Assembly: GCF_004087835.1 (NCBI RefSeq) | Contig: NZ_CP035119.1 | Location: 1,674,001-1,738,000, forward strand | Source of the DNA: Halorussus pelagicus | GTDB taxonomy: Archaea > Halobacteriota > Halobacteria > Halobacteriales > Haladaptataceae | DNA length: 64,000 bases | Direction: 5' to 3' | Shown: one piece after another, positions 17,446-54,919 of the stretch | Layout: each line of letters starts with the position of its first letter | Numbering within the stretch: the first letter of the stretch is position 1 | Program-made: the position numbers and the translations under genes | The notes under the pieces: model-generated | Told to the model about the DNA's origin: nothing | Database searches by the model: none | What the model saw: only the letters and a program-made list of their open reading frames with translations

Positions 17446-17541
17446 GCGACCCGATTGGGCGTCGGCGAGCAAGTGCGTTCGGACTCGAAAGTGGCAACTG
17501 AATATCTTTACGATGACGTTCTCACGATAGCAATAACGCTT

Positions 17542-17658
17542 CGCTCGTCGTCGTTGCGTCGCGGCAGAAACGTCCTGACGGAGTTTCACGCGAGCGAAGC
17601 GAGCGTGAAGCACGTCAGGTCGTGAACGAAGTGAACGTCCTGACGGAGATTTGAACTC
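17542..17658. repeat. 117-base direct repeat, copy 1 (carries a tRNA-Arg 3' end)
   Basis: This block is repeated at 17762-17878, offset 220, with a single difference (GAGCGAAGC here, GAGCAAAGC there). Its last 23 bases (17636-17658) are a copy of the 3' end of the minus-strand tRNA-Arg, covering the acceptor and T arm. It contains inner inverted repeats around GCGAAGCGAGC. Confidence 0.9.
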
Positions 17659-17727
17659 GCCGAGACGGTCCGGGCGTGTGGCGCTTCGCGCCATTCCGGG
17701 CATGCGACCCGTCTGCTCGAATCTCCG
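17659..17727. other. tRNA-flank element, Arg copy
   Basis: Begins GCCGAGACGGTCC and ends GGGCATGCGACCCGTCT plus GCTCGAATCTCCG. The end is an inverted, slightly changed copy of the T-arm fragment that precedes the element, so the whole can fold back on itself. A related element lies beside tRNA-Lys at 54668-54730. Confidence 0.55.
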
Positions 17728-17761
17728 TAGTTGGAGTTTCCGCGACGCGGACGACTCGCTC

Positions 17762-17878
17762 CGCTCGTCGTCGTTGCGTCGCGGCAGAAACGTCCTGACG
17801 GAGTTTCACGCGAGCAAAGCGAGCGTGAAGCACGTCAGGTCGTGAACGAAGTGAACGTCCTGACGGAGATTTGAACTC
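17762..17878. repeat. 117-base direct repeat, copy 2 (overlaps tRNA-Arg)
   Basis: Second copy of 17542-17658. Its right end lies inside the intact tRNA-Arg gene, so the duplication breakpoint falls in the T arm. The 103 bases between the copies hold the tRNA-flank element and a short GC-rich stretch. Confidence 0.9.
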
Positions 17879-17928
17879 CGGTCCCTGGCTCCGCAAGCCA
17901 AGAGGATAGTCCACTACCCTATCAGGAC
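17856..17928 (-). tRNA. tRNA-Arg (anticodon GCG)
   Basis: The minus strand folds into a full cloverleaf. The acceptor GTCCTGA pairs with TCAGGAC. The anticodon stem TTGGC/GCCAG (first pair T-G) encloses the loop TTGCGGA with anticodon GCG. The T arm is CGGAG-TTCAAAT-CTCCG, with discriminator base G. No intron and no encoded CCA. The 3' end is duplicated downstream of the gene (17636-17658). Confidence 0.93.
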
Positions 17929-25510: not shown

Positions 25511-25963
25511 AAAACGGCTGAGGGGAGTAAGCCCCCTTCTGTTCGTCCGAGTATTCGGCTGAGCGTCCGCGCCGTCGTTCGGGCTACCTTGACGACGACC
25601 AGCGTCGAAATTCGACGCCGGGCATCGCGGCGTGGACTTGCACCGGCGAGGATTCGCCGTTCCATCCGTTCTCTCCCGTCTCACGGCGTCGAGCGCCGCG
25701 CGCTCGGCGGTGAAATCGCCGCGCGTAACGTGGCGAAGCCACGCCCTCGGTGGGTCAACTCTCCGTTCCTTTCTCGGCGTGAGCCTTCTCGGTTCGGATT
25801 CGCGCACCTCATCGGTCGGGGAGAGGGGTCTCGTTTCTGTTCCAGAGCCAGCGGTCTCCCGCTCCGGACTTGCGCCCGGTCGCCTGCCCGAACGGTGGGG
25901 GGACTTTCCTCACGGGGACGCGGCGACGCCGCGTCCTCGCGGGAACTCGGCTCCCTCTGCCGG
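25511..25963 (-). ncRNA. rnpB: RNase P RNA (archaeal type A)
   Basis: On the minus strand the conserved core is present in order. The universal GAGGAAAGTCC is near 25907-25917, AACAGAAACGAGACC lies mid-molecule (about 25830-25845), and GGGGGCTTACTCCCC is near the 3' end. The termini CGGCAGAGGGAG and CTCCCCTCAGCCG can pair as the closing P1/P2 helix, and GGACGCGGCG-TCGCCGCGTCC forms a P3 hairpin. The 5' end is set about 25 bases after a CTTAAA TATA box (25986-25991). The length of about 450 bases fits haloarchaeal RNase P RNA. Exact ends are uncertain by a few bases. It processes tRNA 5' ends. Confidence 0.92.
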
Positions 25964-54402: not shown

Positions 54403-54549
54403 GGCGCGTGCGGGCGCGACGCCGTGTGCGTCGCGCCCATCCGCGCGAGGGACGACTGAGCGACTGAAAGGAGCGATGGAGGAGGTTGGGGAGGCGTGAG
54501 GCCCGTGCGGTGCTGTGCGGGGCCGTGCGGTCTGATAGGCGTCGGCAGT
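54403..54549 (+). repeat. Dispersed structured repeat, copy B
   Basis: A 147-base relative of 50322-50483: an 11-bp perfect hairpin (54412-54422 with 54428-54438), then the shared tail (GGTTGGGGAGGCGTGAGG, GTGCTGTGCGGGG, TGATAGGCGTCGGCAGT). One stem position changes from G-C (copy A) to A-T (copy B) with pairing kept. It lies in the 54312-54806 gap, which has no protein gene I can support. Confidence 0.8.
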
Positions 54550-54643
54550 AGCCAGCTCTCACTGATTCTGCTTCGACTCTCGCCAGTCTCACCAAAATGC
54601 AACTCTCACCGCGTTGCTCGTCGCAAAAGTCACGTCGCAGAAG

Positions 54644-54664
54644 CGGGCTGGAAGGGATTTGAAC
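54644..54664. repeat. Copy of the tRNA-Lys 3' end (possible attachment-site relic)
   Basis: Twenty-one bases identical to 54807-54827, the acceptor and T-arm part of the downstream minus-strand tRNA-Lys, starting CGGGCTGGAAGGG and ending TTTGAAC. It is offset by 163 bases. The same kind of 3'-end copy exists for tRNA-Arg. Confidence 0.85.
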
Positions 54665-54667
54665 AAC

Positions 54668-54730
54668 GCCGAGACGTTCCTGCTCACTTCGTTGCGCGGG
54701 CGTGCGACTCGTCTCGTTCAAATCCTTCCG
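54668..54730. other. tRNA-flank element, Lys copy
   Basis: Begins GCCGAGACGTTCC and ends GGGCGTGCGACTCGTCT plus GTTCAAATCCTTCCG with overlap. The end is the inverted complement of the T-arm fragment at 54650-54664, giving a fold-back. Start and end blocks match the element at 17659-17727 beside tRNA-Arg. Confidence 0.55.
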
Positions 54731-54806
54731 ACGAATGATTCCTCCGCTCGCAGTCGTGGCGAGCACACGCTACGCGGTGCTCGCCGATTTGCTTGCGGAG
54801 AGAATA

Positions 54807-54919
54807 CGGGCTGGAAGGGATTTGAACCCCTGGCCGTCTGGTGTCTTCCACGACCATCCGGAACCTCCGGGTGAATCGTGCTAAAAGCCAGACGCTCTGC
54901 CTAACTGAGCTACCAGCCC
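54807..54919 (-). tRNA. tRNA-Lys (anticodon TTT) with 39-base intron
   Basis: The minus strand gives the acceptor GGGCTGG/CCAGCCC, a D arm with AGCTCAGTTAGGCAGAGC, the anticodon stem GTCTGG/CCAGAC and the T arm CAGGG-GTTCAAAT-CCCTT. The seven-base loop is CTTTTAA once 39 bases are removed (54843-54881), at the canonical 37/38 position, so the anticodon is TTT. The intron has its own hairpin (CCGGAGG TTCCGG region), as expected for archaeal bulge-helix-bulge splicing. Discriminator G; CCA not encoded. Mature length 74. Confidence 0.92.

Follow-up and report, generated by a model that had tools for sequence, protein, structure and literature searches.

The tRNA-Lys and tRNA-Arg loci

The window, a 64,000-nucleotide stretch of the Halorussus pelagicus genome (G000), carries two short elements downstream of tRNA genes, and all features of the two loci are located on the minus strand. 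The first host gene encodes tRNA-Lys with a TTT anticodon and an intron (54807–54919; Rfam RF00005, 57.8 bits; tRNA-Lys(ttt) by aragorn run with introns). It is followed by a spacer hairpin featuring a T-rich start and a long palindrome (54733–54806), similar to the spacers of relatives, and then by the element itself (54644–54731, or G000:C1:1728644-1728731; 95.4 bits with covariance model R1, described below). The element begins with an anti-T-loop strand, GGAAGGATTTGAAC (54716–54729), continues with a core composed of a stem, an internal loop formed by TCGCACGCCC and GGAACGT, and the hairpin enclosed between them (54671–54710), and terminates in an exact 20/20 copy of tRNA positions T54–N73 (54644–54663), the source of which is the tRNA end at 54807–54826. 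Immediately past the element lies a G-rich repeat (GGAGGTTGGGGAGGCGTGAGG...GGCGTCGGCAGTAGCCAGC, 54460–54560); sequence resembling it follows the core at two loci of other settings (L399, L408) and occurs near tRNA-Lys of other Halorussus genomes. The window also contains an archaeal RNase P RNA gene (25516–25961, minus strand; RF00373, 145.5 bits).

The second host gene is tRNA-Arg (GCG) (17856–17928), with T54–N73 at 17856–17875. The interval between this gene and the covariance model match forms the spacer (17732–17855), and the element (17636–17731, or G000:C1:1691636-1691731; R1, 53.8 bits) again comprises an anti-T-loop strand, ACGGAGATTCGAG (17716–17728), a core hairpin of the second tip subtype (17662–17710) and an exact 20/20 copy of T54–N73 (17636–17655). 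At this locus the repeated sequence extends beyond the tRNA tail: the 20 exact bases (17636–17655 = 17856–17875) lie within a 122-nt repeat with 98% identity and a spacing of 220. The stretch formed by the copy and a second spacer (17537–17658, 98% identical to 17757–17878) probably represents the beginning of another unit that lacks a core, as we infer, or a tandem duplication.

Thus, elements of 88–96 nt terminate in the exact last 20 bases of the tRNA upstream. An earlier note on this DNA had reported shared blocks joined to tRNA-specific direct copies at both genes, and this description holds, with an exact 21-nt direct repeat at tRNA-Lys (54644–54664 = 54807–54827) and 20 exact bases at tRNA-Arg; when reverse-complemented, these blocks give the internal loop of the core, TCGCAYGCCC and GGAMCGT. 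The intervals that it had taken for the tRNA genes, 54668–54730 and 17659–17727, are in fact the elements. No Rfam curated model matched the elements at the gathering score, nor at E ≤ 1 in four loci. We rejected their assignment as tRNA genes or pseudo-tRNAs: the cloverleaf is absent, only T54–N73 is represented, and there is no RF00005 match at the elements.

The family in the host genome and across archaea

We located 46 tRNAs in the host genome and read their flanks. Eleven were followed, 93–254 nt downstream, by a copy of their own 20 terminal nucleotides that scored 17–20/20, as compared to best scores of usually 13–16 in the flanks of other tRNAs. The covariance model R1, built from 12 aligned elements beside these 11 tRNAs, recovered all 12 members (E-values of 3e-9 to 2e-19), every one located 3' of a tRNA; the only additional hits were one weak, partial match with no tRNA beside it and one no better than chance. 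With a length of 78–97 bp, the 12 members are repeated in the genome and too small to encode a transposase.

R1 detected the family in 52 of 59 relatives. In a phylum-wide sample it was present in 33 of 34 Halobacteriales and in none of 163 other Halobacteriota, at 1–45 copies per genome. Confirmed matches include Halorussus amylolyticus, Halorussus aquaticus, Halomicrococcus gelatinilyticus, Haladaptatus sp. DYF46 and a Halorubrum MAG, and tRNA-linked copies also reside on large Natronorubrum and Natrinema replicons. Among 151 matches in the fetched loci, the host genome included, 142 had a same-strand upstream tRNA detected by aragorn, representing ~35 isoacceptors; seven of the remaining nine had a 19–20/20 copy of their own 3' tail upstream, mostly within tRNA-like sequence missed by the tRNA finder. 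Tandem arrays contained up to four units. The shared blocks of the earlier note, sought near other tRNAs of this genome and its relatives, were therefore found beside many. Chance or GC-rich matching is ruled out by the tRNA-flank scores, the covariance model E-values and the covariation relative to shuffles. The family is real, and we found no earlier description of this tRNA-linked repeat family in open-licence papers.

Exact-pattern matches in the genome collection were mostly bacterial and failed the covariance model, which only haloarchaeal records passed, so pattern matching alone is misleading. A viral origin was also rejected: none of the 13 viral contigs with the pattern passed the model, and no phage record matched. 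With these viral non-members and no larger integrated element found to carry the core, the suggestion in the earlier note that the element is the arm of an integration module gained no support. In another explanation, the units would be scars of larger integrated elements (proviruses or plasmids) that left attR copies of tRNA 3' ends. Archaeal integrases do insert preferentially at tRNA 3' ends, leaving partial copies of the tRNA behind (PMC8371274), and a Haloquadratum case with a 43-nt repeat fits this pattern (PMC3119063); however, scars would not share a covarying core at a fixed spacing in ~35 tRNA species, and in the fetched loci the core was absent from the far end of large inserts, which makes this explanation extremely improbable. 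A partial tRNA copy in a haloarchaeal genome is not necessarily the scar of a provirus.

Unit architecture and covariation

A unit measures ~120–170 bp. Reading along the strand of the tRNA, one finds after N73 a spacer hairpin of ~25–80 nt, the anti-T-loop strand GGATTYGAAC, the core and the T54–N73 copy, and then a T-rich stretch. The earlier note had correctly recognized the direct copy, but not this order of parts. The spacers (e.g., window 54733–54806) are palindromes with a T-rich start and often an A-rich end, resembling two-way terminators, and are shuffled between units. The core hairpin has the consensus TCGCAYGCCC...GGAMCGT and is built of a short stem GCNAG/CTNGC, a U-U and two G-C pairs, an internal loop, a further stem and a variable tip hairpin. 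Two subtypes of the inner loop (CCT/TCCGG and TAGA/CGTGG) and two of the tip were distinguished. Two related units (L362, L363) retain the frame with different tip hairpins, indicating that the core is replaceable.

The proposed pairs covary. For 12 sequences the covariation score was 0.296 versus 0.154 for shuffled controls; for 121 distinct sequences, across all four helices, it was 0.290 versus 0.113 ± 0.005 for shuffles and no more than 0.086 for slid structures. Two alignments were in use: A1 is a plain sequence alignment, and A2 was fitted to the covariance model and is hence structure-leaning.

Such strong covariation over four helices would also be expected of a host-encoded structured RNA, in which tRNA read-through enters the hairpin and the anti-T-loop strand regulates or buffers tRNA processing. 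The near-universal presence in Halobacteriales could equally reflect a kept function, and the elements lie invariably on the tRNA strand. Nevertheless, folding is more favorable for the antisense strand than for the sense one (a mean of −43.0 versus −40.2 kcal/mol), G-U pairs and A-C combinations are similarly frequent in the inner helices 3–4 (14 versus 8) where an RNA would favor G-U, and the core hairpin can be replaced. A sense-strand RNA was set aside on account of the weak G-U excess and the better antisense folding, although neither the fold energies nor the G-U and A-C counts settle the choice between RNA and DNA.

The tRNA-tail copy and the anti-T-loop strand

The T-arm copies were compared with each tRNA, as the earlier note had proposed. 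A copy matches its own tRNA at 18.9 of 20 positions and other tRNAs at 13.2 of 20; in the acceptor half the values are 9.4/10 and 4.0/10. The flanks are indeed specific for each tRNA and the middle is common, as had been claimed, since a single core family spans the whole order. By position, identity to the own tRNA is 0.84–0.98 over 57–73, stops sharply at N73, and is near background at 74 and before 53. Positions 53–56 are invariant, and the left edge of the copy can consequently be placed only between G53 and R57. Copying from a mature tRNA, of which a CCA tail would be the sign, was rejected: CCA follows N73 in none of the inspected sequences.

Core identity between tRNAs is ~0.67–0.70, and copy-to-own-tRNA identity is ~0.95. 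The much greater divergence of the cores implies that the copy arose later than the family did or has been renewed. Agreement with the tRNA is lower in copies that lie farther from it (18.3 versus 19.1 of 20, p = 0.028), a difference that hints that the proximal unit may be the newest in an array. Across genera, core identity is 0.687 for the same tRNA and 0.669 for different tRNAs; within the genus, orthologues reach 0.775 versus 0.702. Element lineages bound to one tRNA are thus not seen across genera. This lack of grouping suggests that cores reach new tRNA species, which favors target duplication.

The inverted T-arm copy of the earlier note corresponds to the anti-T-loop strand, and its strict tRNA specificity did not hold: the strand is mostly a universal anti-T-loop motif, tRNA-specific at positions 57, 63 and 64. 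Watson–Crick pairing with the own versus other tRNAs is 87% versus 58% at position 57, 55% versus 35% at 63, and 33% versus 20% at 64, with no difference beyond 65. Where the upstream T-arm and the downstream copy differ (positions 57–66), the strand fits the upstream sequence in 18 cases and the downstream one in 3, a ratio that decay of the downstream copy alone could equally produce. Simple target duplication does not account for the way in which the strand partly covaries with each tRNA.

Turnover at orthologous tRNAs

We compared orthologous sites in 15–18 Halorussus genomes. The tRNA-Lys site, in 15 genomes, occurs in single intact, double, truncated, remnant and empty states. At tRNA-Ser, genome G014 carries an insert of ~143 bp together with a 20–21-nt repeat; in the closely related G004 the site is precisely empty and continues into the same sequence downstream. 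Nine genomes of the genus have this site filled; in others, among them G003 and the window's own genome, it is empty or lacks a core. Together, the tRNA-Ser pair and the variable tRNA-Lys and tRNA-Ser sites provide the presence/absence polymorphism with a clean empty site by which MITEs and SMRs are recognized. Since exact excision through recombination of the 20-nt repeats would leave the same empty sites, the direction of the tRNA-Ser case is unproven. In G007, what is plain downstream flank elsewhere stands between the tRNA and the core, which indicates that spacers and cores are shuffled within arrays. At the tRNA-Ser loci of G005 and G001 (L379, L383), the T54–N73 copy is broken by a ~55-bp hairpin insert (TTCCGAAAGACGCG...).

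Such alternation of filled, empty and decayed sites is easier to reconcile with mobile DNA than with a retained regulatory RNA. A structured host RNA sits poorly with orthologous tRNAs of one genus that often lack the element or keep a decayed one, and with copies disrupted by other inserts; we consider a host RNA function less likely, and this particular form of it improbable.

Proposed mechanism

The earlier note's suggestion of a tiny mobile fold-back element gains support from the order-wide family, the covarying hairpin and the empty, filled and decayed sites at orthologous tRNAs. Each unit is placed between the tRNA end and a second T54–N73 copy, and the base of its hairpin is complementary to the T-loop. 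We propose that the units are probably haloarchaeal transposase-free fold-back mobile repeats that target tRNA genes at the T-loop and 3' end without disrupting the tRNA. This proposal is drawn from sequence, no enzyme, circle or movement having been seen. An enzyme supplied in trans would recognize the T-loop and cut at or near G53/T54, the unit would be added so that T54–N73 exists twice, and units would be lost via recombination between the 20-nt repeats. No autonomous version was found in the fetched loci. The chemistry could be either a staggered cut with target duplication or the recombination of a circular cassette carrying its own T54–N73; the former is favored by the lack of core grouping by tRNA across genera, and the latter by the fit of the anti-T-loop strand to the upstream T-arm and by the edge at G53|T54.

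As a sub-mechanism of the mobile reading, gene-less circular cassettes, integron- or attP-like, starting with their own T54–N73 and ending in the hairpin, would recombine at tRNA G53|T54T55, much like attC hairpins at G|TT. Consistent with this, the stretch of identity runs from about G53/T54 to the very position at which tRNA function stops, the anti-T-loop strand prefers the upstream T-arm, units form tandem arrays, and folding is more favorable on the antisense strand. Partial tRNA 3' halves at L060 (tRNA-Leu, G000:C1:487702-487786), L140 and L156 are split by an unrelated hairpin precisely at the junction 53|54, and these breaks point to the same cut site. However, the upstream preference is equally explained by decay of the downstream copy, the lack of core clustering by tRNA across genera suits target duplication better, the base after GTT is C where attC has a purine, and no dedicated integrase has so far been identified. 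On balance, this route is possible, with perhaps a minor share of the probability. Slightly more doubtful is its broadest form, an integron-like system devoid of genes: tRNA T-loops would serve as docking sites, and single-stranded or circular hairpin cassettes bearing a matching tRNA 3' tail would recombine at G53|T54 and so repeatedly replace tRNA tails across the order.

Under the mobile reading, essential tRNA genes would act as safe harbors for mobile DNA that are regenerated on use, a natural experiment, and a structured repeat spread beside tRNA genes across a whole archaeal order would offer a handle on a putative recombinase reading the universal T-loop.

Comparison with known systems

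Archaeal tyrosine-recombinase integrative elements likewise use the tRNA 3' end as the attachment site and restore the tRNA with a copy, but they are kb-sized and each uses the site of one tRNA, whereas tRNA-tail units are ~150 bp long, lack an integrase and share one core among many tRNAs (PMC8371274). The Methanosarcina mazei casposon (Cas1-type) also combines insertion at a tRNA 3' end with target duplication; its duplication is 14 bp long and overlaps tRNA-Leu by no more than the last 4 bp, and casposons possess terminal inverted repeats and genes, in contrast to the gene-less units at ~35 tRNA species (PMC6977970). A casposon or mini-casposon, with a ~14–15 bp duplication straddling the tRNA end, was rejected, as the 20–21 nt repeated here lie wholly inside the tRNA and end at N73.

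Integron cassette arrays offer a functional resemblance only, with tandem units, a structure-conserved hairpin ending in G|TT and stacking at a docking gene; the paper on archaeal integrons makes no mention of haloarchaea (PMC9668308). Unlike these arrays, tRNA-tail units are gene-less, dock at a tRNA and match the box consensus in part. The R' and R'' boxes of attC read, from general knowledge, GTTRRRY and RYYYAAC. The corresponding boxes here are GTTC(A/G)AAT and ATT(T/C)GAAC, in which G|TT and AAC are present and the fourth base differs.

SMR-A elements of Haloquadratum walsbyi insert into the palindromes of PATEs and IS605-type elements (PMC3119063). They resemble our units in being ~110 bp long, palindromic and gene-less, present in tens of copies, strict in target preference and enigmatic in mobilization (PMC3119063). 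They differ in the target and in the absence of target duplication, as opposed to the tRNA 3' end and the 20–21-nt tRNA-specific repeat, and have not been described as tRNA-linked, a separation made here by description and not by sequence (PMC3119063). A core-only model, R2, also found the hairpin in ~200-bp palindromic repeats with the ends GACTGAAAGGGG and GGGGGCTTTC, and in the two other settings (L399, L408). Such GACTGAAAGGGG...GGGGGCTTTC repeats carry the core without a tRNA at L078/L424 (G000:C1:2107862-2107917), L398, L401, L403, L404 and L394, and are possibly PATE- or IS605-related. Since a core inside palindromic repeats recalls SMR-A in PATE and IS605-type palindromes (PMC3119063), the core may be a small hairpin module in its own right that becomes part of palindromic units.
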